Of a stretch of DNA of 64,000 bases, positions 36,150-63,622 are shown piece by piece. Each line of letters starts with the position of its first letter. The first letter of the stretch is position 1. A program made the position numbers and the translations under genes. This DNA comes from a virus, in IMG/VR virus record IMGVR_UViG_3300046517_002304, positions 186,001-250,000 of that record; one strand, 5' to 3'. Under the pieces are notes generated by a model that saw nothing but the letters and a program-made list of their open reading frames with translations, ran no database searches and was not told the origin of the DNA.

Positions 36150-36412
36150 GAACATGCGTAGCACTATTCGTCTTTATTTTGATTTCATCATTCTGTCTTG
36201 CCACCTTATGTTTGTGCGTAAGTTGGCACAGGCATGAAAAACCGAAATACATTGACAGCATCATGATTTCAAGATGCTCAGAATACAACTCCAAGCGGAC
36301 AGAATGGGAAAAACTACACTGGAATAAATTTGTTGCGCATATTCGGAGAGATGAGCCATCGCTTTGGGAGCAATACGGCGATCAGCTTAACCGTGGCGTG
36401 TCGGCCAACTAG
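36146..36412 (+). CDS. Small single-pass membrane protein, coupled to upstream membrane gene
   Basis: 88 residues: N-terminal hydrophobic helix (residues 5-25) and a charged soluble tail with several Trp. The start ATGA overlaps the stop of the preceding gene. It could be anchored with the tail in the cytoplasm or periplasm. Function unknown. The end is convergent with the 101-residue gene at 36387, overlapping by 26 bases. Confidence 0.6.
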   Translation: MRTCVALFVFILISSFCLATLCLCVSWHRHEKPKYIDSIMISRCSEYNSKRTEWEKLHWNKFVAHIRRDEPSLWEQYGDQLNRGVSAN

Positions 36413-36692
36413 GGAACTTGCTGTTTCCAGCATTTGGCTGAGTTAGACCTATAACCGTTTTTTGATTTGCTAGATCTGCCGCAAGTCGCTTAACGGTTGT
36501 TTGGTTTGTCATGTTTACTGGAGGACGCTTATTTTTTACGGTTGATATCGCTCCGCTTCCTGTTCCAATATTTGACTTTTGAATAATATCAGAGCCATAA
36601 CCTAACCTTTTAAGTTCTTCGTCATCAAGAACATTTTCAGGGTCTAATCCATACGGATAGTTCTCGTTTAACCATTCTATAAAAGTGATCAA
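36387..36692 (-). CDS. Putative capsid-targeted small protein
   Basis: 101 residues. The N-terminus MITFIEWLNEN fits the proposed capsid-targeting peptide with an LxE-type cleavage site (LNE). TTG start at 36692 overlapping the upstream TGA (TTGA), giving translational coupling. The rest is polar (Thr, Asn, Lys, Pro) and unrecognised. Confidence 0.65.
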   Translation of the reverse strand: MITFIEWLNENYPYGLDPENVLDDEELKRLGYGSDIIQKSNIGTGSGAISTVKNKRPPVNMTNQTTVKRLAADLANQKTVIGLTQPNAGNSKFPSWPTRHG

Positions 36693-37222
36693 ATGCCGCT
36701 CCCATCTCCTGGTTGAACGGCGCGGCCCTGTCGCACCATATTCCTCATGCCTTGTAAAGCGGCATTATAATCAGGCTGTTGGCCTGGTTGGGTAGCATTT
36801 GCCTTATAGGTTTGTCCATTAAAACTTAATTGTTTACCGTTGCCTGCTTGTAATGCTCGGCCTACGTTGGTGAGGAAGTTTTGAACCTTTGGATCGGTTA
36901 GACCAACCTTTTTTAAATCTCCTTGTAAATCAGTGATTTTTCTAGTTGTCTGCATCACTTGATTGCGTTGTTGGCCTTGTTGAAAATTATTGGATACATT
37001 TTGACCGAAAGACTGTATGCCAGATTTAACCGCTTGTCCTACGGCGTTAACTCCATTGCCGATTGCTTGGCCGATGCCGCCAAGCAACTCGTTATAAATT
37101 TGCTCTTCTGATAATGCATTTTTTCTAGCCAGATACATGGCTACTTCATAAAATTCGTCAAACGATAGCCCAGAGATATCTTCTATATTTTTTTGGATTA
37201 GAAACTCTTTGAATAATTGCAT
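36689..37222 (-). CDS. Putative capsid-targeted protein, Gln/Gly-rich
   Basis: 177 residues. The N-terminus MQLFKEFLIQKN matches the shared peptide. Residues 45-175 are Gln/Gly/Asn-rich, with short repeats of the type GIGQAIGNGVNAVGQAV in the middle and no catalytic motif. Between two genes with which it overlaps or nearly overlaps, so co-translated. Likely virion-internal (inference). Confidence 0.7.
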   Translation of the reverse strand: MQLFKEFLIQKNIEDISGLSFDEFYEVAMYLARKNALSEEQIYNELLGGIGQAIGNGVNAVGQAVKSGIQSFGQNVSNNFQQGQQRNQVMQTTRKITDLQGDLKKVGLTDPKVQNFLTNVGRALQAGNGKQLSFNGQTYKANATQPGQQPDYNAALQGMRNMVRQGRAVQPGDGSGI

Positions 37223-37236
37223 ACTCTATGTATTCC

Positions 37237-37785
37237 TTACATCCCAGGAAAAGGTGGCGGTCCTGCTGGCATCTGCGGAATTTGAGGGCCAATTCGTTTA
37301 TCCATAGAAAACATATCGTGTTGATGCGGCGTAATCATATTCTGTAATTGCCCGGCCATGTCTTGTGCATTAGGATTCTGTATATCCTGCATTTGCTGCT
37401 TGATTTGATTCTGGATAGCGGCAATTTCGTTAGGATTGAATCGGAATGATCTAATGACCCCAAGTGTTTTGTTTAGGACTTCGCAGTCCATCATATGCAT
37501 ATTTCTAATGCCAGTTTTTTTGTAAGTCCTAAAAGAATTATATAAAAACCTATCGCCTTTAATTTTATAGTAGCCAAACGTCTTATCATCGCAAAAATTC
37601 TTAAGTAATTTTCGGACATAAACAAAGGTTAAATAATGTAAGTTTATACCCGCAATCCGTCCGTCTGAATAGATACTTGTTACCAGGACTAGCGGACTCG
37701 GATCGTTTCTGTGGAACAGATATTGAAAGTTAATTAAACTTCCCTTTTGTACGGTTGTACTATAGATTCTGCGGAACGGGATCAT
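37237..37785 (-). CDS. Hypothetical protein, possibly virion-associated
   Basis: 182 residues. The N-terminal 120 residues form an alpha/beta domain (SDGRIAGINLHYLTFVYVRKLL, written in parts, then FRTYKK), a pattern I recall from conserved hypothetical proteins in the structural region of T4-like marine phages. The C-terminal 50 residues are Gln/Pro/Met-rich and disordered (QIPQMPAGPPPFPGM). Overlaps the small upstream gene by 26 bases. Confidence 0.65.
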   Translation of the reverse strand: MIPFRRIYSTTVQKGSLINFQYLFHRNDPSPLVLVTSIYSDGRIAGINLHYLTFVYVRKLLKNFCDDKTFGYYKIKGDRFLYNSFRTYKKTGIRNMHMMDCEVLNKTLGVIRSFRFNPNEIAAIQNQIKQQMQDIQNPNAQDMAGQLQNMITPHQHDMFSMDKRIGPQIPQMPAGPPPFPGM

Positions 37786-37930
37786 CTACAATGGCCAAAT
37801 GGCTTACCCTTTCCTTAATGTTCTTAATTTCTTCCTTGATAGTCTCAAGAACTTGAATTTTTTCGCTTAGTTCTTGCTCACTTTTAGCGGAAGGCTGCTT
37901 CTTTTTAGTTTCCTTAACCTTGCGGGCCAT
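37760..37930 (-). CDS. Small Lys/Glu-rich protein, 56 aa
   Basis: Starts at an ATG with AGGAATT ribosome site 8 bases upstream; the longer frame to 37972 lacks one. The translation MARKVKETKKKQPSAKSEQE continues as a charged coiled helix. Overlaps the next gene. Function unknown. Confidence 0.55.
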   Translation of the reverse strand: MARKVKETKKKQPSAKSEQELSEKIQVLETIKEEIKNIKERVSHLAIVDDPVPQNL

Positions 37931-37971
37931 ATAATTCCTACCAGAAAGGGACAATAATATATATAGCGACA

Positions 37972-37977
37972 TAAATA
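37972..37977 (+). promoter_or_regulatory. T4-late-type promoter box (ATAAATA)
   Basis: GACATAAATA, 4 bases before the ATG at 37982. Spacing identical to six other genes in this window; predicted transcript is leaderless. Confidence 0.6.
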
Positions 37978-37981
37978 CAAT

Positions 37982-38416
37982 ATGCAGAATCCCACAGAGA
38001 TGATTAAGATTGAGTCTAATGGCACATCTATGTCTATTTCATCGCCGCCGAAAGAAGAAGTCAAAGAATTAATTACGGATGAACAGGTATTAGGTCTTGC
38101 CGATGAAATCTTACAAGATATTAGAGATGACGCTACTTCAATAAAAGACGCTTATGAAAGATTCTTTGATATGGTGATGAATGAAGGCGATGCATCATCT
38201 GCTAGCAAAGAGGCTATTGTTAACTTGCTAAAAGTTAAATCAGAAATGTCAGATAAAAAGATAAAGGTAATGGATTTGTATATGCGAGTTAAATTAAGAG
38301 AAAGAGACACTTTCCCTAAATATCTTGTTAATAATCAAAAAAATACTATCGTTAATGGTATGGACAAAAAGAAACTATTAGAGGAAATAACTGAAGATGA
38401 GCACAAAAATAAATAA
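37982..38416 (+). CDS. Hypothetical helical protein, 144 aa
   Basis: Acidic and basic segments with a helical core (ITDEQVLGLADEILQDIRDD, then FFDMVMNEG, NLLKVKSEMSDKKIKVMDLY, written in parts). Not recognised; a small DNA-packaging or scaffold partner is conceivable but not shown. The late-type box and the overlap with the downstream gene argue for a virion or assembly protein. Confidence 0.65.
   Translation: MQNPTEMIKIESNGTSMSISSPPKEEVKELITDEQVLGLADEILQDIRDDATSIKDAYERFFDMVMNEGDASSASKEAIVNLLKVKSEMSDKKIKVMDLYMRVKLRERDTFPKYLVNNQKNTIVNGMDKKKLLEEITEDEHKNK
38410..38415 (+). promoter_or_regulatory. T4-late-type promoter box inside upstream gene end
   Basis: AAATAAATA, 5 bases before the ATG at 38421 and 2 before the one at 38418. 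Confidence 0.4.
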
Positions 38417-38420
38417 GATG

Positions 38421-39710
38421 ATGTGGCTAGAAGAAGAAGGACTGGACGCTAATCCCGGCCAACCCGCTCAAAATATGCAACAACAGCCCGTCCCAACAAT
38501 GCCTAATGCACAACAGGCGTCTATGTCTGATCCTAATCAGCAAAAAATTCCTCAGGCTAATCCTGGTGATCAAAAATCTATGAGCGATAATGATAAGGCT
38601 CCAGATCAAGGTCAGTTAGATCCTAATTCTCCTGATATGCCAGAAGAAAATGACGAAGTTGAATTTAATAGCTGGAAAAATGAATACTTTAAGTTAGCCG
38701 TTCAGGGCGATACTGATAAAATGCTTGATTCTATTGATACTATCAGAAATCATGACCTAAAAGCATCGCAAACTAAGTTCGTAGAAGATAATTTTCAAAT
38801 ACTGCTTTTGAGACAGGACGCTAACTTTGACAAGGTTTCTAAAAGTATAAGAAGGTCTATTAAGACTGACGTTGATAAAGACCATCCTGGCGTATCAATG
38901 ATGCAGATTATATCACAAGAACTAGACCCTAATCCAGTATTAAGCGAAATATTAGTTAAGCTATTCGGATTCCATGGATTAAAAGGTGAGCTACATCGTA
39001 AGTTTCTTGCTGCATTAACCGGATCTGTTCAAGTAGGTGGTGGCGCAAGCAAAGAAGATATAGTTTTTAACGATAAAGATTTCTCAATCAATATCTCCAC
39101 TAGAATGGCCAGTGATTTTGGCGAAATTAATTTAGGTAAGTGGTCGTTACAAGATGACGATACGCATAAGTTCCTTGCCGAACCAGAGGTCGCACGATTA
39201 CAAGAAGGTAGCCCCGAAGAGCGCAAAGCACTGATTCATCGTGTTGTTATGTCAAGTATCGCAGAGAAGTTTAAGAAACGCGCCTTTTTAATACATGTAG
39301 TGTCTGAAACTGGAAATGTTTATAGTATTGGATGGGACTTAGGCGATAGTTTACAGAGCGCATATAAAGAAGGAAAACTTATAGTTAAGAGCGATGATTC
39401 TGATGACGCAGATGTTTCCATTAACGAAGCCGGTGAATTAGTTCCTCTTAAGAATTTAGGCATTTACGCTAAAATGCCAGACAGCGAAATAGGCGATAAT
39501 GGAGAAACAGAAGAAAAAACGGTTCCGTTTATTGAAAATAGAAGCGGCACACTTTACTTTGTCGCTGATATGGACACCATGAATTCTATGGGCGGAAATT
39601 TAGCTGGCATGTCTTTCCAAAACAAGCCATATACAGGTAGTCCAGTAGAGTTTAAAAATTTAACCAGATGCATTCCGTCAATGACTGAATTGCTATTAAG
39701 GAGATGCTAA
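38421..39710 (+). CDS. Hypothetical protein with Pro/Gln/Asn-rich N-terminal arm
   Basis: About 429 residues. I chose the ATG at 38421, 5 bases from a TAAATA box; ATGs at 38397 and 38418 are alternatives. The N-terminus MWLEEEGLDA may be a reduced capsid-targeting peptide. Residues 10-80 are a Pro/Gln/Met-rich flexible arm, followed by a long alpha/beta body and a C-terminal region with conserved-looking charged turns. No enzyme motif. Followed by a TAATG-coupled gene. Probably structural. Confidence 0.65.
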   Translation: MWLEEEGLDANPGQPAQNMQQQPVPTMPNAQQASMSDPNQQKIPQANPGDQKSMSDNDKAPDQGQLDPNSPDMPEENDEVEFNSWKNEYFKLAVQGDTDKMLDSIDTIRNHDLKASQTKFVEDNFQILLLRQDANFDKVSKSIRRSIKTDVDKDHPGVSMMQIISQELDPNPVLSEILVKLFGFHGLKGELHRKFLAALTGSVQVGGGASKEDIVFNDKDFSINISTRMASDFGEINLGKWSLQDDDTHKFLAEPEVARLQEGSPEERKALIHRVVMSSIAEKFKKRAFLIHVVSETGNVYSIGWDLGDSLQSAYKEGKLIVKSDDSDDADVSINEAGELVPLKNLGIYAKMPDSEIGDNGETEEKTVPFIENRSGTLYFVADMDTMNSMGGNLAGMSFQNKPYTGSPVEFKNLTRCIPSMTELLLRRC

Positions 39711-40198
39711 TGCAGTATTTTCATAGTTTTGTTGACAGAAAACACAGAAAAGCAATTAAAGAGTTAAAAACCATAGATGAAGTTCTCACTATGGCCGGGT
39801 TCAAGGTCAAGAAGTTTTTTGAAGACAAGTTTGATCCTTATATCTTCGTAGCGTCAAATGCTGATACTCCATTTGGCGGCATTAGAATATACAAGATTGA
39901 AAGCACGATTGCTTATCGCGCCCAAAACGAAGAAAAAACACATCCTTACGGCAAAGCATTTAATATTGACGTTGAAGGAATATTTGAAGACTATCTAGAA
40001 GATGATGAAGAAGGCGATAAAATTGGAGAAATGGTTGCTAAGGCAATAGCAGAAGACGTGCGCTTCTTTTTCAAGAAAAATGCCGAACTATATTCTCCAT
40101 ATGCACAATTTGACAAAGATAAAACGGACAAGCCACAAATTATGACGCCACCAGTTGGTGGAGCAGATAAATTTAGGGCTGACGGCGCTTGGTCGTAA
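39710..40198 (+). CDS. Hypothetical protein, 162 aa
   Basis: Begins at the second ATG (39710), 6 bases after AAGGAG; the first ATG in frame (39704) lies inside that ribosome site. Residues 50-125 have an alternating strand-helix pattern (PYIFVASNADTPFGGIRIY), and an acidic loop EDYLEDDEEGDK. Unknown function. Translationally coupled to the previous gene. Confidence 0.6.
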   Translation: MQYFHSFVDRKHRKAIKELKTIDEVLTMAGFKVKKFFEDKFDPYIFVASNADTPFGGIRIYKIESTIAYRAQNEEKTHPYGKAFNIDVEGIFEDYLEDDEEGDKIGEMVAKAIAEDVRFFFKKNAELYSPYAQFDKDKTDKPQIMTPPVGGADKFRADGAWS

Positions 40199-40429
40199 TT
40201 AGCGGCCTTTGTTAACAAACTTTTTGAAGGTAATTGGCTCAAAAAGTCCCTTGACTTCTCTAGATGGATCTAGTATAATCTTGTTAACTGCTTTATTGCC
40301 CTCTTGGCTTTTCACTTTACTCCATGCGTTTCGGCGAGTTGAGAGAGTGTACTTTTTAAATGCGGTCTCTAAGGCTTTAGCTATGTCGTCTATCGCCTTT
40401 TTTTGATTATTAGACTCTTGATTACTCAT
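40199..40429 (-). CDS. Small basic protein with C-terminal FKKF peptide
   Basis: 76 residues, Lys-rich. The C-terminal ITFKKFVNKGR (66-76) resembles the recurrent F-K-x-[FW] peptide, here at the end instead of the start. Its ATG shares the CATG with the opposite gene at 40428. No Shine-Dalgarno; a TATATAAGG stretch lies just upstream. Confidence 0.55.
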   Translation of the reverse strand: MSNQESNNQKKAIDDIAKALETAFKKYTLSTRRNAWSKVKSQEGNKAVNKIILDPSREVKGLFEPITFKKFVNKGR

Positions 40430-40628
40430 GCCTTATATAGTAAGCTCAATTCCAAGCATTTGCCTCCATGAAGGATATAAATATTATAGCACTGCATTTC
40501 CTCCAGTCAGAGCCAAATCATTAATAAGCCATCTCAAATTTATTGCGCATGACAGTATCTTATCATTAGCCGCCGCAGGTAGTAATTCTTTTATACGGAG
40601 TAAAAAAATTGTCAAACCATCTAATTAG
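40428..40628 (+). CDS. Small hypothetical ORF, uncertain
   Basis: 66 residues, no recognised motif and no clear ribosome site. It shares bases with the opposite start (CATG at 40427-40430) and covers the ribosome site and first 20 bases of the carbamoyltransferase gene. May be a real coupled leader gene or merely open frame; the alternative is a 180-base leader of the downstream gene. Confidence 0.35.
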   Translation: MPYIVSSIPSICLHEGYKYYSTAFPPVRAKSLISHLKFIAHDSILSLAAAGSNSFIRSKKIVKPSN

Positions 40629-41508
40629 CACAAGTCAGTTTCATGAACCAAAAGATTTAGAGCCTTTTTTTGCTCACGCCGATTTAATGGCGAATCCATG
40701 GAAAAAGGCCGACCCCATTTATATGTTGCGTGGTAAGGTCGTAGGACTTGTTTTCTTAGAAAATAGTACAAGAACCAAGATATCTTTTAAGGTTGCAGCG
40801 AAACGGTTAGGATGTCATACATTTGATTTCGGAGTACAACAGTCGTCAATTCAAAAGGGCGAAAGCTTACAAGATACAATAAAGGTCTTGGAGCAATATT
40901 CTGACGCTCTTGTTATTAGAGAAAGAAATCATTCGCTACTTGAGACGTTTGCCAAAACATCAGAAATACCTATTATAAATGCCGGTAGCTCAGAACACCC
41001 TACTCAAGCAATAAATGATTTATATACAATTAAAAAAGAAATCGGCAAAATACATGGAACGAATATTTTACTTATGGGTGACTTGAAATATAACAGAGCC
41101 ATTTTTTCACTAATTAACATGCTAAAGATGTATTCGCATATTAGAATTCATCTTTATTCACCCGCTGAACTAAGGCTCCCCAAAGAATTTTTCTATGAAA
41201 ACATCATCTTTGTTGAGGAACAGGATCTTACAAAGTTACTTCCTAAAATAGATGTCGTCTACATCACGCGCCCGCAAAAAGAGCTATACCCAGAAGGGCT
41301 GTACGAAGAAGTTAAAAATAAATACGTTTTTGGTGAAAAAGAACTTGCTTTATTGGCAAAAGATGCTATTATCATGCATCCATTACCACGTAATAATGAA
41401 ATTCCCAGAACGCTGGACTCTGACAAGAGAGCCGTCTATTTTCGGCAAGTAAAAAATGGCATGTACATACGAATGGGAATTCTCAAAGAACTTATGAGGC
41501 ACGAATGA
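40609..41508 (+). CDS. pyrB: Aspartate carbamoyltransferase, catalytic chain (PyrB-like)
   Basis: 299 residues, the size of bacterial catalytic chains (about 305-310). All signature sites are present: carbamoyl-phosphate loop ENSTRT (51-56), K83 in QKGESLQDT, HPTQ at 130-133, R221/Q223 in TRPQKE (the aspartate-binding pair) and HPLPR at 257-261, which separates ATCase from ornithine transcarbamoylase. It would catalyse the first committed step of pyrimidine synthesis. TTG start with GGAG 8 bases upstream. Overlaps the adenylate kinase gene by ATGA. A complete ATCase in a phage is unusual. Confidence 0.88.
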   Translation: MSNHLISTSQFHEPKDLEPFFAHADLMANPWKKADPIYMLRGKVVGLVFLENSTRTKISFKVAAKRLGCHTFDFGVQQSSIQKGESLQDTIKVLEQYSDALVIRERNHSLLETFAKTSEIPIINAGSSEHPTQAINDLYTIKKEIGKIHGTNILLMGDLKYNRAIFSLINMLKMYSHIRIHLYSPAELRLPKEFFYENIIFVEEQDLTKLLPKIDVVYITRPQKELYPEGLYEEVKNKYVFGEKELALLAKDAIIMHPLPRNNEIPRTLDSDKRAVYFRQVKNGMYIRMGILKELMRHE

Positions 41509-42056
41509 TCTTCATTCTTTTCGGAAAACCTGGTTCAGGAAAAGGTACGCAGTCTAAGGTACTGAGCGAAAGATTAAAAATTAGACATATCGATGTCGGC
41601 AACATTTTACGACACAATATTCAAAATAGGACAGAGTTGGGCCGCAAGGTTTATGGATACATAGATAAAGGCAACTTAGCGCCAGATGAATTAATTAACG
41701 CAATGGCCGTGGACACAGTAAAAGAAGTCGGCCCCAGTTCCTTTGTCTTAGATGGTTACCCAAGAAATATTAAGCAAGCGGAGTTTTTTAATAATCATAT
41801 TCTTAAAAAGAAAAATGATCACTGTATTGTTATTCATCTAAACGTATCTGATGATGTTGCAAAACAGCACATTTTAGACAGGCATCGTGGCGACGATACC
41901 GAGGATATATTTGTTAATCGCATGAAAATTTATCAACAAGACACCTTGCCAGTTTTGGAATTTTTTGCTAAAATACACCCAGTGCTATCTGTGCCAGCAG
42001 AAAAAAATATTGAGGATGTAAGTAAGTCATTTATGTCATTTTTATACGGCTATTAA
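41505..42056 (+). CDS. adk: Adenylate kinase, short type
   Basis: 183 residues. P-loop GKPGSGKGTQ at 7-16, DGYPRN in the middle and the closing lid region DRHRGDD, all as in adenylate kinases; no zinc-lid insertion, so it is the short form. It would convert AMP + ATP to 2 ADP, feeding nucleotide pools, in keeping with ATCase just upstream (ATGA overlap). UMP/CMP kinase activity cannot be excluded. Confidence 0.85.
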   Translation: MIFILFGKPGSGKGTQSKVLSERLKIRHIDVGNILRHNIQNRTELGRKVYGYIDKGNLAPDELINAMAVDTVKEVGPSSFVLDGYPRNIKQAEFFNNHILKKKNDHCIVIHLNVSDDVAKQHILDRHRGDDTEDIFVNRMKIYQQDTLPVLEFFAKIHPVLSVPAEKNIEDVSKSFMSFLYGY

Positions 42057-42068
42057 GAGAGAACGATC

Positions 42069-44854: not shown

Positions 44855-45202
44855 ATGCTACAAATCACTGATGTCGCTGCGCAAGAGATTAAGAGCGTTA
44901 TGAAGCAAAACAATGTGCCTGATAACACTTACTTAAAGCCCTTTATCCAAAGTCAAAGCTGTTCTGGAACTAGCTTTGGACTTGGCTTTGTGGATACGGT
45001 GGATGCCGACGATATTACGCTAGAAGTTCAAGGCATTAAAGTTTTAATTAATGAAGCAGAGGAGCCACTCCTTAAGTCAACAACTATTGATTACAACATT
45101 GAGAAGAAGGGGTTTGTTTTCAAGAACCCGCTTCAAACCATAAACAATAGTAGTGCTGGTGGATGCGGTAGTTGCTCAACAGGTGGCTGCGGAAGCCATT
45201 AG
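44855..45202 (+). CDS. A-type iron-sulfur carrier (IscA/HesB-like)
   Basis: 115 residues. The pattern AAQEIKSVMKQ, then SCSGTSFGLGF with C36, then LLKSTTIDYN, fits the HesB/IscA/ErpA family. The C-terminal CxC of IscA is replaced by a longer Cys-Gly tail with C104, C107 and C112 (GGCGSC, GGCGSH). Such carriers hand Fe-S clusters to client enzymes; the phage nuclease at 3728 with its four cysteines is a possible client. AAGGA ribosome site. Confidence 0.78.
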   Translation: MLQITDVAAQEIKSVMKQNNVPDNTYLKPFIQSQSCSGTSFGLGFVDTVDADDITLEVQGIKVLINEAEEPLLKSTTIDYNIEKKGFVFKNPLQTINNSSAGGCGSCSTGGCGSH

Positions 45203-46017
45203 AATATAAAGTTCATAAGTCCAGTCATCTTGACTTCGCTGGCAGAATCCGTAATGCTAATATAGCCGTTGGCGAACTTTATTTTCATATTTGCGCTTGA
45301 GCCATAGTCTTTATCGGCGTTGTTGCCTTTACTCGGATAAAGCCGCAGCGATTCAGCCTCTGCATCATATTGTCGTTTAATTAAATCGGAGTAAGAGATA
45401 AGACCCGCATCTTTCGTTTTAGTTTTTTCATTTTTATAAAGATGGTATGCCGACACTTTGGCCTCGTTTCTTAGCTCATCTTGCGAAGCATGAATAAATA
45501 CATTATAAAATACGTTAAAGAATATCGGACCTCCTGATACACCAAGTATAGAACTAATTACAGCATGAGGATGCATACTGGCATTGTTGCTTGATAGATA
45601 TACATCTAGTTTTGCCGCGTCAAATCCAGTAGCTTTTTGAAAAGTCCATGAACGTTTTAGTATATCGGATACCTTTTGCTTCATTTCGTTAAATTTAGGT
45701 GTGTTAAATTCTAAAAACCATATAAAATCTAAATCGGCATCTTTGCTATCTGGCCTGACGCTGTAATACGTCTTATCTGCTTTATAGCCCTGTTCTTTAT
45801 TGAACAGGAAATCTTTAATTATACTAAGAACAGCTTTGCTATCTGCGTCTTTTCTTTTGGCCCACGTAAGCACTTTTTTTCTAAAACTAGGCCAGTCATC
45901 ATCGCCGCCCCCGCCCCCACCGCCGTCATAATCATTGTTGTCAGTGTTGTTTATATTTCCTATATCAGAGCCTTTAATAGTGGCGACTGCTTCTAAAAAC
46001 TGCTTAAAGGACTTCAT
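45199..46017 (-). CDS. Putative capsid-targeted protein with poly-Gly/Asp linker
   Basis: About 272 residues, starting at the ATG at 46017 that overlaps the upstream stop (TAATG) and has AAGGAC before it. The N-terminus MKSFKQFLEA matches the shared peptide; next come Asn/Asp residues and a run of seven Gly then Asp (residues 32-41), a likely flexible linker, then an unrecognised alpha/beta domain of about 220 residues. The first 40 residues look like a removable targeting arm. Effector domain unknown. Confidence 0.7.
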   Translation of the reverse strand: MKSFKQFLEAVATIKGSDIGNINNTDNNDYDGGGGGGGDDDWPSFRKKVLTWAKRKDADSKAVLSIIKDFLFNKEQGYKADKTYYSVRPDSKDADLDFIWFLEFNTPKFNEMKQKVSDILKRSWTFQKATGFDAAKLDVYLSSNNASMHPHAVISSILGVSGGPIFFNVFYNVFIHASQDELRNEAKVSAYHLYKNEKTKTKDAGLISYSDLIKRQYDAEAESLRLYPSKGNNADKDYGSSANMKIKFANGYISITDSASEVKMTGLMNFIF

Positions 46018-46550
46018 TACTTGTCCTTCCAAGGCATATCTTTAAATAACCCATATTCATCATCGTTGCCGCCCGTTGGCTCTTGTGGTGTTGATTTTTT
46101 TTGACTTTTATCCATAAATTGTTTAAATGAATAACCAGGAGGCAATTCATTTTTTGGTGGATAAGTGGCGATTACATTATCTCCATGCGCGCTAAAGCCA
46201 AACATTTGTTCGGTTCCGTGCTTAATTTTTTTGAGCACATTGAGCATATCTGATCTATTGATTGGCACTTCAATGAACAAATTGTCTCTAGCTATGTTTC
46301 CTCTAGACATTCTATCCATAAAATAATTAACAATATCCATTACGCCACTTTCTGCTCCGTCTATTTCAAAAATAAAGATGCCTCTTTTGTAGTTGGTCCT
46401 ATATAAGGCGAAAGCATTGACGTTTCCAGCGCCATCAAACGATACGACTCCAGTGTTAGTAGAAATTTTTTTCTCTAAAGCAGGCGTGTAGTTTCTAGAA
46501 ATATCAGCAATTTGGCTCAAGTTCCTGGGTGTAATATTTTGAATTGGCAT
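46017..46550 (-). CDS. Hypothetical protein with internal FKQF peptide
   Basis: 177 residues. Residues 30-120 resemble a small alpha/beta domain (GVVSFDGAGNVNAF, then GIFIFEID), possibly GNAT-like but without a clear acetyl-CoA motif. SFKQFMDK at 141-148 is an internal copy of the targeting-like peptide. The rest is charged and disordered. A TAAATA box sits 4 bases before the ATG. Shares transcript and stop/start overlap with the next protein. Confidence 0.6.
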   Translation of the reverse strand: MPIQNITPRNLSQIADISRNYTPALEKKISTNTGVVSFDGAGNVNAFALYRTNYKRGIFIFEIDGAESGVMDIVNYFMDRMSRGNIARDNLFIEVPINRSDMLNVLKKIKHGTEQMFGFSAHGDNVIATYPPKNELPPGYSFKQFMDKSQKKSTPQEPTGGNDDEYGLFKDMPWKDK

Positions 46551-48486: not shown

Positions 48487-49404
48487 ATGGCAAAAAATCT
48501 CAAACGATGTTTGTTTTTCATAATTCTATTTGCCATACTCTTCTCATCGCTCCCGCAAGACAAATATAAAAACGGTGCCGTTGTCTTAATAGGCGGCGGA
48601 TATTGTGCAGAGGGCATTGAGTGGCTGTTAAATAAGGCCGAAAGTAGAGAGATGCTCGTGCTATCGTCAGATGACGTATGGATGAGCTGGCTATACAGAC
48701 TTCAGGCCAATACTAAGATAGACTTCTTAATAATACCATCTAGGGATGCCGCTAACTCAGATCAAGTAATTGATAAAATCTATAGAGCTAAATCCATTCT
48801 GATATCCGGAGGCTATCAGAACGATTACATTAAGTTATGGAAAGGAACCAAGCTTGCGGCAGCAATAAGCAAAATGGCTTATAAAATTCCCGTTGGTGGG
48901 TCAAGTGCCGGACTAGCTATTATGGGTGAATTTTACTATTCAGCAAAAAACAATACGGTGATTAGCGATGAAGCGCTATTCAACCCGTATAATGAGTTTA
49001 TGTCTGATATTGATAATAACTTTCTTAAATTACCATTTATGGAAAATATAATTACTGACTCTCATTACGCAGAAAGAGGGCGACAAGGCAGACACTTGGT
49101 CTTCATGGCGAGAATATTAAATGATAGGCATATAGAAAATATTAAAGGAATCGGAATAGATGAAGACACGGCTTTATGCATTGACTACCGGGGAACCACA
49201 ACCGTTTTAGGGAATGGCAAGTGTTATCTTATAGAAAATCTATCTTTCCCGAAGATATGCATTATAGGACAATGCCTAATCTGGAACAGAGCAGCAAGGG
49301 CGTACATCATTAGTTCTGGCACCGTATTTGATATTAATAAATGGAAATTTGAGAGCAGCGAAGTTTGGAGTGTTGAAGACGGGAAACTAGTCCGCGCTAA
49401 TTAG
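48487..49404 (+). CDS. Cyanophycinase-like peptidase (family S51)
   Basis: 305 residues. N-terminal signal or anchor helix (5-22). Then VVLIGGGYC, IPVGGSSAGLAIMGE with nucleophile S140, DSHYAERGRQGRH (191-203) and GIGIDEDTALCID, all fitting cyanophycinase, a Ser-dependent peptidase that cuts cyanophycin (poly-Asp-Arg) to dipeptides. A related dipeptidase E function is possible. The N-terminal helix suggests export or membrane attachment, unlike cytosolic cyanophycinase. Starts at ATG 48487, after an in-frame TTG at 48484. Confidence 0.82.
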   Translation: MAKNLKRCLFFIILFAILFSSLPQDKYKNGAVVLIGGGYCAEGIEWLLNKAESREMLVLSSDDVWMSWLYRLQANTKIDFLIIPSRDAANSDQVIDKIYRAKSILISGGYQNDYIKLWKGTKLAAAISKMAYKIPVGGSSAGLAIMGEFYYSAKNNTVISDEALFNPYNEFMSDIDNNFLKLPFMENIITDSHYAERGRQGRHLVFMARILNDRHIENIKGIGIDEDTALCIDYRGTTTVLGNGKCYLIENLSFPKICIIGQCLIWNRAARAYIISSGTVFDINKWKFESSEVWSVEDGKLVRAN

Positions 49405-49840
49405 CGTATCTTTTAATTAATGAAATAGAATGATTAATTAAAGCGCTAAGCCCGAAGTGCTTCGGTTGTATTTTCAGAAGCTCATTTAAATCTACCCACT
49501 TAAACTCCTGCGTTTCACAGTTGCTGGTCGGCTGAAATTCTTCGGGTACTAAACCGATGAAATTATGATACTCAAAATCCTTATCTTTAAACACATAAGC
49601 GGGAATTAGGTTTATCATTCCACGATAACCAGTTTCTTCATGAAACTCTCTATTGGCTTCTGCTTTTAGGCTTATCGTATTATCGTCTACCTTACCGCCG
49701 ATAGTTCCATAGGTATTTGGCTCATTCACATGAATAGAGCGCAATGCTATTAGAATTCTCTTCGTAGTAAAAGAAATGGGCAATATCCCAACTCCCTTGC
49801 TTCCCCAATATCGGGATTCTAAATAGTTTTTGAATTTCAT
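49397..49840 (-). CDS. Nudix hydrolase with capsid-targeting-like N-terminus
   Basis: 147 residues. Nudix signature: GGKVDD (48-53) and REFHEETGY (64-72), with one residue more than usual between GG and RE. Nudix enzymes cleave nucleoside diphosphates linked to another group (damaged dNTPs, NAD, capped RNA). Starts at the ATG at 49840, overlapping the upstream stop (TAATG); a frame extension to 49876 lies inside that gene and is not used. The N-terminus MKFKNYLES matches the shared peptide, so it may be packaged into virions (inference). Confidence 0.82.
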   Translation of the reverse strand: MKFKNYLESRYWGSKGVGILPISFTTKRILIALRSIHVNEPNTYGTIGGKVDDNTISLKAEANREFHEETGYRGMINLIPAYVFKDKDFEYHNFIGLVPEEFQPTSNCETQEFKWVDLNELLKIQPKHFGLSALINHSISLIKRYAN

Positions 49841-50097: not shown

Positions 50098-50982
50098 TTA
50101 GGATACATTAACCGGTTTATTATTGACAACCACTTTAGGCAAGGCGTCTAGTATGGCTTCTATAAGTTTAACCTGCCCATCGTCAACCTTTTCTAGGTAT
50201 ATGAATAAATCTGCTAAGTTTCTAGCATCTGGATGGTATGAGTATCTATTGGCCAGAAGGTGCTGTATGGCTTTTAGCATTTCATCTTCGGAATCGCCCA
50301 GTACATGCTTTGTGAGAGCAAAGTAATCTCTTTTAAATTGGGCTACTCTTACGCCAAATTCATGCGGCATTAAATAATATTTAACAGTATTTTTTTCATC
50401 TCTGTCAAGGTCTGAATTATCAATATCGGCATCAGTAAATTGTCTAATAAGTCGCTCTTTAAAAGTATTTTGGGCAGCGTGCGTTAGCTCGTGTGCCAGT
50501 GCTTCTTCTTCATCTTTTTTAGCAACTACGCAGAAAGGATTGCCGATTGCGTCGTTGGAGCAAAAGGCTACATTGCCCGTTAACTTACCCTTTAGCTCAT
50601 CTGGACTTACGTTTATAACTGGAACGTACTGCATCATTCTAATCTGGTTAAACACCATGCCGCTTTTGGCATCTGCGGGTTTTTGAGCCTTAACTGCATT
50701 GCTTATTGCACTATCAGTTTTATCACCATAAAAACCATGTATTACATCTAGTGGTTTATAAAAAGCAATTTGATCTGGGTTTAAATTATACCCATATGTT
50801 TTTTTAACATATTGAATTAAGTCGGCCTTTCTCTCAACTTCTGTTGCCTTATCAGGATGAATCCGAGATACCTTTGGCATTATACCCATCATGGCTGTGC
50901 CGATTACTAATGGACTTGCTATTTTACGAAGCCTGCTGTTCATAAGACCCTCAGTTTGAATTAGCCATTCTCTAAATCGCAT
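50098..50982 (-). CDS. HExxH zinc metallopeptidase with capsid-targeting-like N-terminus
   Basis: 294 residues. EEALAHELTHAAQ holds HELTH at 164-168 (two zinc ligands and the catalytic Glu); a third ligand probably lies in YLMPHEFGVR downstream. N-terminus MRFREWLIQTEG is one of the shared peptides. Residues 20-40 are hydrophobic. TAAATA box 4 bases before the ATG. A protease delivered with the DNA could cut host defence or cell-envelope proteins (inference); a head-maturation role is the main alternative. Confidence 0.75.
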   Translation of the reverse strand: MRFREWLIQTEGLMNSRLRKIASPLVIGTAMMGIMPKVSRIHPDKATEVERKADLIQYVKKTYGYNLNPDQIAFYKPLDVIHGFYGDKTDSAISNAVKAQKPADAKSGMVFNQIRMMQYVPVINVSPDELKGKLTGNVAFCSNDAIGNPFCVVAKKDEEEALAHELTHAAQNTFKERLIRQFTDADIDNSDLDRDEKNTVKYYLMPHEFGVRVAQFKRDYFALTKHVLGDSEDEMLKAIQHLLANRYSYHPDARNLADLFIYLEKVDDGQVKLIEAILDALPKVVVNNKPVNVS

Positions 50983-50986
50983 GAAT

Positions 50987-50992
50987 TATTTA
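50987..50992 (-). promoter_or_regulatory. T4-late-type promoter box (CATAAATA)
   Basis: CCATAAATA on the minus strand, exactly 4 bases before the ATG at 50982; it overlaps the candidate ATG of the divergent gene. Confidence 0.6.
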
Positions 50993-58019: not shown

Positions 58020-58078
58020 ATTGTATCTATATGAAGCACGGTCATACTGTTAGTATTTTTTATTAAGTGTTTTAAAAA

Positions 58079-60193
58079 TTAAACAGTTTGCGAAAGCTGA
58101 TAGGCCGTAAAGTTTTTATTTGCCGTTTTGTCTCTCGGTTCTAAAACAATTTTTGCGTGGATTTTCATCATCGGCTCTTGGAACTCTGGATCTTTTGTCC
58201 TTACCGATGTTTGAATTGCCTTTTTTAGAATTGGCATCATTTCAGATTCAAATTTAGAATTATACTCTACGCTTACATTATTATGTTCGTCCGAATGCAA
58301 TATCACCAATCCCTTTTCATCATATGCAACACCAACAGATATCTCGGATGCGGCGGCATATATGTCTTCGTTATCTGGCTCTGCCTCATATTTCCAACTT
58401 TCTTCTTCTTCCTCTTGTTTTAGTTGCTTAATCTTCCACTCAACATACTCATTATAATACTTTGTTTTTATTAGTTGCTCAAGGTCTTCATTTGAAATAT
58501 CATCTGGTACATCAAGCGATTCATCGCTAGCAAAATCATCCATGTCATATCCAATATCATTCATTACTTCTTCTTTATCTTCTCCGTAAGATTCCGATGG
58601 CTTAGATTCAACGTTTCCCTGAGCTTTCTCCATAGCAGCTTCATATGCGTCATCGTGTACTTCGTCAAAATCAACTATTTCATTTGAGATAAAATCTTCT
58701 TCATCTATGCTGTCGCCTCTGTAGGAAACGTATTTATCTGGTACGTCTTCCCATGTTTTCATGCCATCCTTAAGCACTAGGTATTTCCACGCAAGCTCGC
58801 CTATAATAAACTTATTGTTTTCGGTTTTTTGTCGCGCAGCTTCCTTTCTGTCTTCGTCTGCCTTAGTATGTTGGGCATGGGCATCATCTATATGAGCCAT
58901 TATTCTAGGATCAATCTGGAGATACTTAGAAAGCTCTTTTATGTTTGTTACAGCATGCTTTTCCAGTGGCTCGCCAGGATTCTCTAAATATGAATTTAGT
59001 TCTTGCGTATACTCTTGCTTAAATTTGTTAAATTGTGATGGAATAAGAGACTCTAGGGCGGCAGAGTGTTTAAAAATATTTATTGCATCGTAATAACTCT
59101 GTTCACGTATATTTTCTATAACATCATTTACGTTATCGTCTAAAAATTTGGCTATGTAAAAGATTACAGAGCCTCTATTGGTTTTGTCTGCCGCAGCCTT
59201 GTTCATAATATCATACAGATACTTGTTATCTTTACTAACAGCCCGAATAAAGAAATGTAGTATTTCATCATCGGCATAACTGGCTTTTATAAATTTACTT
59301 ACATCATTTAAAGGCACTCTGGTATTGGCTGGCTTAATGTCTAGAGCAGGATGCTTTCTCCCTCCAGAAACCGTTGTGCCGACACCATTGATTCTATGCA
59401 TTACCATTTCGTGTGCATTAGGATATCCTTTTAACATTGTATCTGCTAAAAACTTTAAGTAAGCTACATTATTGTTATATTCATTTTGCCATTTGTCTTT
59501 CGCCTCATGACCAGTTTTGCTATGGACGGTTTCTATAGTACGTCCACTCATCCTATCTCTAATTTCATAAAACTCCATTAAATCATTATCGATCAACGGT
59601 TTAGCAGCCTGCTTCATCATGTCAAGAACGCCATCAATAGCATGTTGCGGGTGTTCGTTTCTAAAAAAGTAAGACCAAGAACCAGATGCTTTTGATACAG
59701 AAATGCCAGTAGTGATTTTTTGTGCATTGGATGCGCCAGCCTTAATGTCTGGGACTGCCGAAACTTTATGCTGAGTGTCCTGCGCATTCTTAAACTTATT
59801 TAATAAATCCTGTTTTTCAGGTTCAAACTCATCGCTTTTAATGTTCTTAACAATATTAGACCAGTCTGATTCGCCTTCTTTATATGGAACCGGCTTACCG
59901 GCCTTAGATTGTAATAACGGCGCTAAAGTTTTGATAAAGCTAATGTCTACGCCTTTTCCTGCCTCAATAGGATTAGTTTTGGTAATGCCAACGTGTGTCG
60001 GCCTCTGACTTATAGAAACATATCCTACTCTTCTTGCTTGATACGGTGCAATAAAATAAGTAGACCATTCGGTATCCGTCTGATAGTTGAACTCTTTAAT
60101 GAAATGTGGCTCAACGACATGAAGAGTGGATTCGCCTATCCCATCTTGGATGACGATGCTTTCTGATAACAGGAGCCACTCTTTGAAATTCAT
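58079..60193 (-). CDS. Large putative capsid-targeted protein, unknown function
   Basis: 704 residues. N-terminus MNFKEWLLLSES with an LxE-type site (LSE). Residues 90-430 are mixed alpha/beta with several conserved-looking His (HKTGHEAKDKW); residues 430-620 are acidic and helical (many EE, DD); the end is beta-rich. No recognised catalytic motif. Late-type box 4 bases before the ATG. An internal virion protein is likely. Confidence 0.7.
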   Translation of the reverse strand: MNFKEWLLLSESIVIQDGIGESTLHVVEPHFIKEFNYQTDTEWSTYFIAPYQARRVGYVSISQRPTHVGITKTNPIEAGKGVDISFIKTLAPLLQSKAGKPVPYKEGESDWSNIVKNIKSDEFEPEKQDLLNKFKNAQDTQHKVSAVPDIKAGASNAQKITTGISVSKASGSWSYFFRNEHPQHAIDGVLDMMKQAAKPLIDNDLMEFYEIRDRMSGRTIETVHSKTGHEAKDKWQNEYNNNVAYLKFLADTMLKGYPNAHEMVMHRINGVGTTVSGGRKHPALDIKPANTRVPLNDVSKFIKASYADDEILHFFIRAVSKDNKYLYDIMNKAAADKTNRGSVIFYIAKFLDDNVNDVIENIREQSYYDAINIFKHSAALESLIPSQFNKFKQEYTQELNSYLENPGEPLEKHAVTNIKELSKYLQIDPRIMAHIDDAHAQHTKADEDRKEAARQKTENNKFIIGELAWKYLVLKDGMKTWEDVPDKYVSYRGDSIDEEDFISNEIVDFDEVHDDAYEAAMEKAQGNVESKPSESYGEDKEEVMNDIGYDMDDFASDESLDVPDDISNEDLEQLIKTKYYNEYVEWKIKQLKQEEEEESWKYEAEPDNEDIYAAASEISVGVAYDEKGLVILHSDEHNNVSVEYNSKFESEMMPILKKAIQTSVRTKDPEFQEPMMKIHAKIVLEPRDKTANKNFTAYQLSQTV

Positions 60194-60197
60194 ACCT

Positions 60198-60203
60198 TAT
60201 TTA
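60198..60203 (-). promoter_or_regulatory. T4-late-type promoter box (GTAAATA)
   Basis: AAGTAAATA on the minus strand, 4 bases before the ATG at 60193. Confidence 0.55.
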
Positions 60204-60231
60204 CTTTGGAAGACAATCTTTCTACAACTGA

Positions 60232-60239
60232 TATAAATA
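60232..60239 (+). promoter_or_regulatory. T4-late promoter, exact TATAAATA
   Basis: Identical to the T4 late consensus, 4 bases before the ATG at 60244, so the transcript would be leaderless. Confidence 0.65.
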
Positions 60240-60243
60240 CTAT

Positions 60244-61593
60244 ATGAACTTCAAGGTGTGGCTAGAAGCAATACTAGACCCAAATGTAAAATACTTAGGT
60301 AAATACCCTAACGATTACGGCGATAAAAAGCCACGCCTTGGTAGGGGAGCTTATCTTAAACTAGATACTAATGGTCGCGTCACATCCTTAACCCAAGACG
60401 ATTGGGAACGGGGCACTCCATATATACAAATACAGCCGAATCACTCAATATCTTTGCACAAGATAAGCCCTCAATCGCCTGATTTTGCTAAAATTATAAA
60501 AGCATTAAAGCCAAAGTTCCATGATATAGGAAATTGGCAAGTTGAGTATTTCTTTATGGCAAGCCATTTAGTAACCGGTAATGAAAAATATTATCGTACA
60601 GTAGATTACTGGCTTAAACATACTGTTAATATTAACGATACCTTGCCCGAATTCTTTTATCACGGAACATCCACCAATCAGTGGTATGAAGGCATTAAGA
60701 AAAATGGCTTACTACCAAGAAATATTACCGGATCTGCCGGAGGGTATGGTTCACAAAACGCAAGTTCTTTAAGCAAAAAAGGTATAGTTTATCTTTCTAC
60801 TCATCCCGACGCGGCCACAAGAACCGCAGCAGAACAGGCGGCAAACAAACATGGTGGAGTGCCGCTGATACTGAAAATCAATAGTTCTGGGATATTCAAG
60901 GATAAATTAGTACCAGATGAAGATTCAAGGCAACCAAATGCCCAAAAGTCAATCGTTAAAATGTCAACTGTAGGATATGAAGGGCGAGTACCTCCATCGG
61001 CCATAGAGCCATTTTTACTTGGTAATGAATATGAAAAAAATAGTCGGCTTTATACTAAATGGGAAAAATTTAAAGACGTTCCAGTTGCCGAACATCCATT
61101 AACCGCACGTTTAAAATCTGGAATGACGCCATACAGCAATGATCCAGAATACTATATTTTGAGGGATGCGGGAATTATTAAAAGAGAAAAAACAAGAAAC
61201 CCTACTAGTGGCTGGCCATCTGAAAACGACGTTCAAACTAGAGAAGTAAGCGACGAAGAGTTACGCAAATTACTTAAAAATGGTGGGTGGGCAAACACTG
61301 CTAGGGCGATTAGTACTGATTTAAACAATGGCTATCAAGGATGCATATACAGCTTAAAAGACATCACCCTGCCGCCTAACATGTCGCCAGAATCGGAAAG
61401 TATAATTAAGATGCTAACTGACAGTAGGCTATGCGGCACTGATACTCGGGGCGAAAAGAGGTATATCTATTTAAACAACTACGATTCAATGGATAGGGTA
61501 ATTGCCTTAGCTAAACTTCTACATGCTAAAAAGATGGACATGGACGATCTATGCCGAGAAATAAAAACTATTACGGCGTTGCCATTAGACTGA
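60244..61593 (+). CDS. ADP-ribosyltransferase-like (KptA/ART fold) capsid-targeted protein
   Basis: 449 residues. N-terminus MNFKVWLEA (targeting-like). Residues 138-215 read FYHGTS, then GIKKNGLLPR, then GIVYLSTHPDAATRTAAEQAA, then PLILKIN: the H-Y pattern of RNA 2'-phosphotransferase and R-H-Y-type ADP-ribosyltransferases (H140 and YLS 183-185). The glutamate of toxin ARTs is not identified, so it may be a KptA-like NAD-using enzyme. T4 packages an ART (Alt) in its head and injects it; this could be an analogue. The C-terminal 220 residues are unassigned. Confidence 0.72.
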   Translation: MNFKVWLEAILDPNVKYLGKYPNDYGDKKPRLGRGAYLKLDTNGRVTSLTQDDWERGTPYIQIQPNHSISLHKISPQSPDFAKIIKALKPKFHDIGNWQVEYFFMASHLVTGNEKYYRTVDYWLKHTVNINDTLPEFFYHGTSTNQWYEGIKKNGLLPRNITGSAGGYGSQNASSLSKKGIVYLSTHPDAATRTAAEQAANKHGGVPLILKINSSGIFKDKLVPDEDSRQPNAQKSIVKMSTVGYEGRVPPSAIEPFLLGNEYEKNSRLYTKWEKFKDVPVAEHPLTARLKSGMTPYSNDPEYYILRDAGIIKREKTRNPTSGWPSENDVQTREVSDEELRKLLKNGGWANTARAISTDLNNGYQGCIYSLKDITLPPNMSPESESIIKMLTDSRLCGTDTRGEKRYIYLNNYDSMDRVIALAKLLHAKKMDMDDLCREIKTITALPLD

Positions 61594-62115
61594 CATTAAG
61601 TGAGTTCTTTGAATCTGCTTGCCTACCCCGCCTGGCGGAGGTAATGGCGAAGGTGGATTCCTATCATCATCGCCGCCATTATCGTTATCATGGCCATTAT
61701 AAAAGCCATAAATAGCATTCTCAATAAAATGCACAACTTGCGCCGGCGATTTCAATGGAGTTTGAGGATGTAAATTGTCTGCTATGGAATGAGATAAATT
61801 ATCTCTCTGCATTCTTAGATTTACGAAAAACTTAAGGAACTTATTACCAGTAGCGTGGTCATATTGTAAATTATCCACATCATCGCCAGCGGCCTTATCA
61901 ACCACAACATCTACAGTGGCAAGAAATACGTCATTCTTATGAATACCTCTTCCAGTAAAAGATAGGCGATTATGAAAGCTATATTTTGGATCAAAGTTTA
62001 CTTCTTTCCAATCCATAGTCCAATTACCGGCTATATGTTTGGAAAAAGCTTGCTTAAAATCATTGGCTAAATTAGATAATGATTGGCTATGCTCAACAAA
62101 TAGTTTAAACTTCAT
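61585..62115 (-). CDS. Putative capsid-targeted protein with Asp/Pro tail
   Basis: 176 residues. N-terminus MKFKLFVEHSQ, a variant of the shared peptide. Unrecognised alpha/beta core (residues 25-140), then an Asn/Asp/Gly/Pro-rich tail. TAAATA box 4 bases before the ATG. Convergent overlap of 9 bases with the ART-like gene. Confidence 0.68.
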   Translation of the reverse strand: MKFKLFVEHSQSLSNLANDFKQAFSKHIAGNWTMDWKEVNFDPKYSFHNRLSFTGRGIHKNDVFLATVDVVVDKAAGDDVDNLQYDHATGNKFLKFFVNLRMQRDNLSHSIADNLHPQTPLKSPAQVVHFIENAIYGFYNGHDNDNGGDDDRNPPSPLPPPGGVGKQIQRTHLMSV

Positions 62116-62119
62116 ATAC

Positions 62120-62125
62120 TATTTA
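62120..62125 (-). promoter_or_regulatory. T4-late-type promoter box (CTAAATA)
   Basis: TTCTAAATA on the minus strand, exactly 4 bases before the ATG at 62115. Confidence 0.6.
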
Positions 62126-62129
62126 GAAG

Positions 62130-62381
62130 TTAATATCCGTAATCTTCGGAATAATCGCCGTCCATAGGATCAATTATAACGTCAGCATCATAGGCCCACT
62201 TAGATAATAGCCTAGATACTTCTTCATAATTCCAGAAGCAGCTTACCATAATTGGACTTTCTTCCCCACAGCTCGGGCCAAATGATCTAATAATGCTTAT
62301 AATTTCACTATCCCATTCACCGGAGGTCCATCTAATATGATAATCGTAAAGTCCAACTCCGCTGAAGTCAAATAGTTTCAT
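62130..62381 (-). CDS. Hypothetical acidic protein, 83 aa
   Basis: No domain recognised. A compact acidic protein with several Trp and Tyr and two Cys. N-terminus MKLFDFSGVG is a distant variant of the targeting-like peptide (L-F-D-F). It starts 42 bases from the divergent gene at 62423 and may be co-expressed with the gene at 62115. Confidence 0.55.
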   Translation of the reverse strand: MKLFDFSGVGLYDYHIRWTSGEWDSEIISIIRSFGPSCGEESPIMVSCFWNYEEVSRLLSKWAYDADVIIDPMDGDYSEDYGY

Positions 62382-62406
62382 CTGGTAAATCTCTTATTAA
62401 AAATCC

Positions 62407-62422
62407 ACTAATATATATTAGT
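62407..62422. promoter_or_regulatory. 16-bp perfect palindrome abutting a start codon
   Basis: ACTAATATATATTAGT equals its own reverse complement and ends one base before the ATG at 62423. It lies in the gap between divergent genes and could be a dimeric operator or a bidirectional promoter; no TAAATA box is present here. Confidence 0.5.
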
Positions 62423-63622
62423 ATGCGATTTTCTCAATTCTTGACAGAAATTAGGACTCCTCCACATATGCCTCTGAAGTATTTCAGAGATAAGCTGGCC
62501 AGCATTTCTGCTATAGAGCAAAATCTGAGTGAATTTGTTTTAAACTATGAAAAATTTCAAGATATTTTATATGATTTCAATGGTACTTCCAACTATTACA
62601 GAATCCGCTTACCATGGGAAATTGGAGAAAAATTAGGCAAAAATACATCATATAAAGATTCATTTTCAGAGCCGATAAGAAGACTATTTCAATATTTAGA
62701 GTTTGATAATCCTCACGGTTGGGAAAAATTTCTGCCAAACATTCTTCCGTTCGGAGAAGAAGGATATCAAGCTTTTATTACAAAGCATCAAAAGACATTG
62801 AGGAAAATGACTCAATTTATAAAAGCTGCGCCTGATTTAGTTAATGAAATAAAAAGTGTTGCTGAATATTTGCAGGGTGGAAATCAAGCCGAGCCAGGAG
62901 CGCCGACTTTAGCAGAGGCAGTAGGGTACGTGAATTACATTGCCAATGGATATCAAAATATAATGAAGTTGCTAAAAGAAGTTTTTGATCTTGAACATAA
63001 ATTAAAAGCGTATATGGAAAGAATACAACTTAATAAAGAGAGACAGTGGAACAGCACCGGAGAAGATATCAAGCCGAAACACGAAGGCACAGAAACATTA
63101 TATCATGCTACAATTGCCGCAGATGCTATTATAAACGGCGGATTTAAAACAAGAGCAGAATTAGGCCATAACGGAGCCTTAGGTGGTGGGCCGAGTGATG
63201 TAGTAAGTTTTACCGCCGACCTAAGAATAGCTAAAGAAATAAGCAAGAACCTAAGAATTGTAGTCAGAATAGCCAAAGGATTAATTAAACCAGAAGAAAT
63301 ACTAAAAATGGCCGCAGACGATAATGTTGACATTAGTAGATTTGACGCTCCCCGTAGTTATGCTCGCCATAAGACAGATGATCCAAAGATGACCTATGAG
63401 TTATTCAGAAGCTTTTTAGCACAGGCACATTTTGATAACAAGCATTATGACCCGTTATTCTTCGACGTATCTTTAGATGATTTGAAAAATGTAGATGAAC
63501 GACAAATTGGCGTACTAGCTTGTAAGGTTGATATGAGCCAAGTGAAAGATTATCTCACATCTATGGAAGAGTATAGAGCGCCGCCTAGTGCAGTTTTAGG
63601 TGTTAGAAAGGCTATAGGATAA
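62423..63622 (+). CDS. ADP-ribosyltransferase-like capsid-targeted protein
   Basis: 399 residues. N-terminus MRFSQFLTEIR, with an exact LxE site (LTE). A helical region (20-205) precedes the ART-like part: LYHATIAADAIINGGF (226-241) and DVVSFTADLRIAKEI (259-273), giving the H/Y and S-T strand pattern of ADP-ribosyltransferase folds. Catalytic Glu not assigned. Together with the gene at 60244 it forms a pair of likely packaged ARTs. Coupled to the next gene by TAATG. Confidence 0.68.
   Translation: MRFSQFLTEIRTPPHMPLKYFRDKLASISAIEQNLSEFVLNYEKFQDILYDFNGTSNYYRIRLPWEIGEKLGKNTSYKDSFSEPIRRLFQYLEFDNPHGWEKFLPNILPFGEEGYQAFITKHQKTLRKMTQFIKAAPDLVNEIKSVAEYLQGGNQAEPGAPTLAEAVGYVNYIANGYQNIMKLLKEVFDLEHKLKAYMERIQLNKERQWNSTGEDIKPKHEGTETLYHATIAADAIINGGFKTRAELGHNGALGGGPSDVVSFTADLRIAKEISKNLRIVVRIAKGLIKPEEILKMAADDNVDISRFDAPRSYARHKTDDPKMTYELFRSFLAQAHFDNKHYDPLFFDVSLDDLKNVDERQIGVLACKVDMSQVKDYLTSMEEYRAPPSAVLGVRKAIG

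Follow-up and report, generated by a model that had tools for sequence, protein, structure and literature searches.

The window analyzed here is a stretch of 64,000 nucleotides (positions 186001–250000) of the 511,233-base virus record IMGVR_UViG_3300046517_002304, the genome (~511 kb) of an uncultured giant phage. Many of its proteins begin with a peptide tag of ~9–14 residues, in which an aromatic pair (F and then W, F or Y, three residues apart) is followed by an aliphatic residue and often a glutamate. This tag was interpreted as a capsid targeting sequence (CTS) of the T4 internal protein (IP) type that is used at large scale, with a probability of roughly 0.87. In T4 IPIII (MKTYQEFIAE), residues Y4 and F7 act in targeting, and I8 and E10 in processing (PMC9026906). 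The likeness to this leader, proposed in an earlier sequence-only reading of the window, was borne out: the tags have the same aromatic-x-x-aromatic-aliphatic-x-E spacing as that mapped by mutagenesis in IPIII. The same DNA pattern, applied to the T4 genome, returned exactly ipII, ipIII and 61.1, each at its annotated start.

The working pattern was M.{1,3}F..[WFY][LIV] at the gene start, i.e., M-x(1-3)-F-x-x-[WFY]-[LIV]. The sequence-only reading had named ten N-termini, all of which were found in the sequence at their positions, and had described them as M-x-F-K-x-[WF]-L-x-E. The shared tag was real, but this wording was too strict: Y as well as W or F can be the second aromatic residue, and only six of the ten have K directly after F. 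Eleven of the 77 window genes matched the working pattern, and nine of them were among the ten named proteins. An origin by chance or from composition bias in an AT-rich genome could draw on the frequency of F, K and L and on the many non-gene matches of the bare DNA pattern. That explanation was refuted by shuffled N-termini, which gave 0.41 matching genes on average and never more than 3 across 2000 shuffles against the 11 observed, and by a test in which genes were picked by the aromatic pair alone (434 genes). Here L, I or V came next in 31/44 cases compared with 21.6% of internal pairs (P = 7e-11), and [LIV]xE stood behind the pair in 17/44 compared with 7.1% (P = 4e-8). None of the 364 internal Met positions in the window matched the tag pattern; when a nearby E was required as well, eight window genes were left, with 0.08–0.13 expected. 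In the huge phage LR756508 (484 kb), the first pattern was no more frequent than in the control (46 vs. 46), whereas it was in excess in G000 (76/46) and LR756511 (66/36).

Four matches were discarded as hydrophobic or motif-poor: window positions 1–750 (MQFFKFLGNFF) and 39704–40198, which were both among the 11, and genome positions 390730 and 43514. The gene at 5212–6204 (MKSVNHNTFVSWLEKH) was a lookalike of the tag and remained uncounted; almost all of it aligned with LR756511 protein L043:1160-, which is primase-like (36% identity).

Among the tagged genes of the window were two adjacent ones on the minus strand, encoding a 101 aa protein (36387–36692, MITFIEWLNE|NYP), which starts with TTG instead of ATG downstream of a Shine-Dalgarno (SD)-like sequence, and a 177 aa protein (36689–37222, MQLFKEFLIQ). 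A 272 aa protein (45199–46017, minus strand, MKSFKQFLEA) and a 147 aa NUDIX hydrolase (49397–49840, minus strand, MKFKNYLES followed by RYWGSKGVGIL; Pfam NUDIX, E = 9e-12; phrog_1198) start at ATGs lying 5 and 12 codons inside their open reading frames (ORFs), the former ORF spanning 45199–46032. The 294 aa protein at 50098–50982 (minus strand, MRFREWLIQTE) was metallopeptidase-like, with an HExxH motif (AHELTH) and a sub-threshold eCIS_core match across that region, and its cargo resembled a tagged protein of contig L100. A 704 aa protein (58079–60193, minus strand, MNFKEWLLLSE|S) had a cargo resembling tagged proteins of L090 and L103. The divergent gene on the plus strand, whose ATG lies ~50 bp from that of 60193(-), encoded a 449 aa protein (60244–61593, MNFKVWLEA) with an ADP-ribosyltransferase (ART)-like stretch (FFYHGTSTNQWYEGIKKNGL), assigned by motif only; it matched phrog_13493 (E = 1e-7 over 138–268), and its cargo resembled tagged L079:6849. 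These were followed by a 176 aa protein (61585–62115, minus strand, MKFKLFVEHS) and a 399 aa protein (62423–63622, plus strand, MRFSQFLTE|IRT) with a possible ART-like stretch (LYHATIAADAIINGGF), again by motif only. The weakest of the ten named cases was the 351 aa candidate at 802–1857 (minus strand, MALRFKEWSN), in which W is followed by S in place of L and which carries no L-x-E; a profile search gave no family match at a meaningful score. A tblastn search of 58079–60193 and 60244–61593 against named phages gave no match, and a related-loci search with three cargo proteins gave either no match or only a contig of 100% identity.

The census of tagged genes combined pattern searches of the genome with a reading of ~266 kb of the 511 kb. 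Many more than ten tagged genes were found, ~41 in total; this number is a lower bound from a non-random sample, because the stretches read were chosen partly by motif hits. The tagged genes clustered at genome positions 41–53, 63–74, 81–88, 142–165, 185–250 and 490 kb, with a few others elsewhere, and the baseplate and tail block of the window (about 11–36 kb) contained none. Tags outside the window included MGSFANWMQE, MSSFKLFLEE, MNFRKWLVSE, MKFSEFLNE, MDFKHWVNE, MNFTDFIQE, MRFSEFLDE and MKTFQEWLKE. Tandem tagged paralogues of 477 and 468 aa, 47% identical, were located at L034:13771-16607(+), and their tags differed (MRFRAYLES and MRFSQFIES). A second repeated N-terminus, MK-x-I-[ND]-x-[ND]-LI-[AK]-S-[LV]...GY/WI[RK][ST]K, was observed on small genes at L034:7022-7264(-), L034:8765-9136(+) and L035:15411-15809(+).

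The genome also encoded T4-type head-maturation machinery. The gp21-type (S77) prohead protease, which a CTS of this kind calls for, was present at 164128–164814(-) (PF03420, E = 1e-25), and its DHP and GVSTRG motifs, containing the conserved His and Ser, aligned with NHP and GVSSRG of T4 gp21. It was adjoined by a gp22-like scaffold gene, called from its position and coiled-coil-like sequence, and by gp23 (PF07068, E = 5e-87). T4 gp23 is cleaved at FLTE|A. Its propeptide of 65 residues is consistent with this cut (PMC9026906). Relatives of the phage gp23 carried [FY]L[NTHV]E|[ASG] within approximately the first 15 residues (MNANAKFLTE|S, MSANAKFLNE|A and MSHNNNFLVE|A), the phage's own gp23 had MSNFGTAKGEFLHE|G, and the distant LR756508 gp23, without [FY]-L-x-E, was the exception. 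The tag signature therefore recurs where head maturation should act. Short copies of gp23 segments were observed in two small ORFs, L034:13483-13728(-) and L034:18931-19134(+) (FSHMSIPLFKNLNTASIANKLVSVQPLLGPTG and MAEFKRISIPLIRRIYPSLI), one of them behind a zinc-ribbon-like stretch. The tagged T4 protein gp61.1 likewise contains a stretch resembling gp23 (TTSGAVVNKGP), and the small tagged L089:6174 appeared similar.

An IMG/VR pattern scan for the tag yielded 31 contig pieces, most of which held several tagged genes (14/19 in L079 and 6/6 in L090). The claim that the tagged proteins are otherwise unrelated was supported: after the first 14 residues were removed, 164 tagged proteins fell into 103 cargo groups. 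The Nudix cargo of 49840(-) aligned with tagged Nudix proteins of L079 (MTTFKQFLEN) and L088 (MNFKQWLLEN); the Nudix homologue of GAP32 was untagged and began at the domain, and those of BcepSauron and Tunturi_5 had different N-termini. Since homologues exist both with and without it, the tag is portable. Because the IMG/VR pieces had been found through the tag itself, the reverse check was also made with one cargo family (SWIM-finger-like by eye), which was searched alone with the tag trimmed off; 13 of its 16 homologues were tagged. In nearly all 16, the boundary to the cargo was marked by the glutamate, behind a spacer of 0–3 residues (WLE|SS, WLNE|SS, WLELNE|SS and WIITE|SS). The Nudix homologue of Tunturi_5 (a Tunturiibacter phage) lies near the N-terminal end of gp273 (L072:2620-6447(+)), a polyvalent-protein-like product of ~1490 residues with an ART-like motif (VYHGTKAEF) behind the Nudix part; the same domains occur as separate tagged proteins in the present genome.

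The tag might instead be a localization signal unrelated to the head, directing proteins to a membrane or a replication compartment of the infected cell, and F-x-x-W-L could indeed form a short amphipathic helix. We regard this as improbable: the spacing is that of the mapped T4 CTS, the glutamate is conserved at the cargo boundary, and a matching [FY]LxE occurs at the N-terminus of gp23 in a genome that encodes the T4-type gp21/22/23 module.

The promoter context set the tagged genes apart. TA[AT]ATA, which resembles the T4 late promoter TATAAATA, was located no more than 18 nt upstream of the ATG in 18/32 tagged and 33/359 untagged genes (P = 8e-10), and at −60 to −43 the two sets did not differ. 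TAAATA near any window ATG was not in excess (33 vs. 28.8), so that the enrichment was confined to tagged starts, and SD-like sequences were rarer upstream of tagged genes (6/35) than of untagged ones (122/347). Within the window, TAAATA was found 4 nt upstream of the ATGs of 60193(-) (60191–60203, minus strand) and 60244(+) (60234–60246, plus strand), and also upstream of 50982(-) (50980–50992, minus strand) and 62115(-) (62113–62125, minus strand). The pattern fits late, nearly leaderless mRNAs. It might even be supposed that the N-terminal codons merely aid translation of such mRNAs and that the peptide has no function, which would agree with the box near the ATG and the few SD-like sequences. 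This is very improbable, since it is the amino acids that are conserved and not the codons (TTT/TTC, TGG/TTY/TAY, CTN/TTR and GAA/GAG are mixed freely), the spacer varies and yet the glutamate stays at the cargo boundary, and the same box precedes 33 untagged genes.

Beyond the window, too, many cargoes were enzyme-like. A tagged protein of 180 aa, L119:6246-6788(-) (genome 490246–490788), had a RelA/SpoT domain above the Pfam cut-off and is possibly a head-delivered nucleotide-signaling enzyme. A GNAT-like acetyltransferase (MNFKLFLEE..., L036:8941-9315(-), genome 184941–185315) was tagged and scored below the Pfam cut-off; its ORF overlaps adjacent ORFs and was missed by simple gene calling. 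Tagged 69605(-) gave a sub-threshold PARP/ART-PolyVal match, and three or four further ART-like motifs were found in the genome. Among relatives, the tagged protein L070:9189-9743(-) matched Acb1, which acts against the cyclic oligonucleotide-based anti-phage signaling system (anti-CBASS), with 37.8 bits (cut-off 27), and also 2_5_RNA_ligase2; other tagged cargoes were 2H phosphoesterases (L066 and L084), an AAA_33 kinase (L070:3116-) and HExxH proteins (L063 and L064). To our knowledge, RelA/SpoT-domain, Nudix, GNAT-like and HExxH peptidase-like enzymes are not known as injected phage proteins.

These cargoes bear on the possibility that the tag brings proteins to the prohead core for a role there, in assembly or DNA condensation, and that no effectors are injected. 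T4 IPIII does influence head assembly (PMC9026906), and several small tagged proteins (genome 45739-, 74204-, 85924- and 490997-) had Lys-rich tails like those of basic internal proteins. Nevertheless, a role limited to the core is unlikely given the many enzyme-like cargoes (NUDIX, RelA/SpoT, GNAT-like and HExxH, with Acb1 in a relative), which vary from one related phage to another and are similar to proteins with host-directed or anti-defence roles. On balance, we favor the more specific proposal that T4-headed huge phages carry a modular, exchangeable arsenal of at least 40 head-delivered proteins per genome, mostly phage-specific and including RelA/SpoT, Nudix, GNAT-like, HExxH and several ART-like proteins, with an Acb1-type protein in a relative.

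By analogy with T4, the CTS interpretation implies the following course. Tagged genes would be transcribed late from T4-like TA[AT]ATA promoters situated nearly at the start codon. Through its aromatic pair, the tagged protein would bind to the prohead core built on the gp22-like scaffold, and the gp21-type protease would then cut behind the glutamate of [LIV]-x-E, or of the WLE and FLE variants, simultaneously with gp23, and free the cargo inside the head. The cargo would be ejected with the DNA and might act at once on host defence or metabolism, through Nudix, ART-like, peptidase-like and RelA/SpoT activities here and through anti-CBASS and other 2H phosphoesterase-type proteins in relatives.

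Several points weigh against the CTS interpretation, although none of the defining T4-type features that were examined failed outright. The L/I-x-E cleavage site proposed in the sequence-only reading was present in strict form in only three of the ten named proteins (WLNE in 36692(-), LLSE in 60193(-) and FLTE in 62423(+)). The other seven departed from it; four of these have the glutamate directly behind an aliphatic residue (FLE in 46017(-), YLE in 49840(-), WLE in 60244(+) and FVE in 62115(-)), and no clear cleavage site could be recognized in 37222(-) or 1857(-). T4 gp55, the late sigma factor, had no match in the genome at E 0.01, a search that a diverged homologue could escape. The ART assignments consist of short motifs and the one sub-threshold PARP/ART-PolyVal match, and AlphaFold2 models of 60244(+) and 62423(+), run without an alignment, were not interpretable (predicted local distance difference test of 35 and 40).

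If the arsenal proposal is true, counter-defence would be in place ahead of any phage gene expression. Most huge-phage genes have no known function, and a tag readable from sequence would single out those whose products are carried in the head and are the first to act in the host. It provides a short set of candidates that can be tested as early effectors or anti-defence proteins, for instance an Acb1 or a RelA/SpoT-domain protein delivered in the head. The T4 internal-protein idea, with its few small inhibitors, would be widened to dozens of cargoes per phage, most of them enzyme-like, and the tags could add new members to the peptides with which proteins can be loaded into T4-type heads.

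Of the known systems, the T4 internal proteins (IPI, IPII, IPIII and Alt) are the most directly comparable: they share an N-terminal tag of ~10 residues with an aromatic pair three apart and, for part of the tags here, a strict aliphatic-x-E, as well as the gp21/22/23 head module, and unrelated cargoes behind one tag. T4 injects Alt, an ADP-ribosyltransferase (PMC9026906), and type IV restriction enzymes are inhibited by Ip1-3 (PMC12373910). The present genome differs in having ~41 tagged genes in half its length compared with a handful in T4, in its enzyme-rich cargoes, in the preference for W at the second aromatic position and in the variable spacer ahead of the glutamate. T-even phages likewise combine a constant leader with varying cargo, and at least ten IPs are reported over related phages in work cited by PMC12373910; there the IPs are spread over many phages and Ip1-3 are restriction inhibitors, whereas here more kinds, many of them enzyme-like, occur in one genome. 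The inner-body and ejection proteins of phiKZ and SPN3US also belong to giant phages, and their prohead protease cleaves head proteins that are ejected, but the propeptides are mostly >100 residues, unlike the T4 CTS (PMC5694885). No such long propeptides were seen here, where the tags are short and the head genes T4-type. P1 Dar is similar in that the N-terminal signal of DarB is enough for a foreign protein to be packaged in the head (PMC9024508); that signal comprises ~30 residues, and the proteins are different. Polyvalent proteins (PMC5512222) deliver ART, peptidase and other conflict domains with the DNA as well, with many domains in one giant protein, in contrast to the single-domain proteins with one tag each seen here. 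Searches of open-access literature turned up the T4, P1 and phiKZ/SPN3US systems, and no account of a CTS repertoire in T4-headed huge phages. New here are the scale of the system, its enzyme-rich cargo with rapid exchange, and its occurrence in huge phages.

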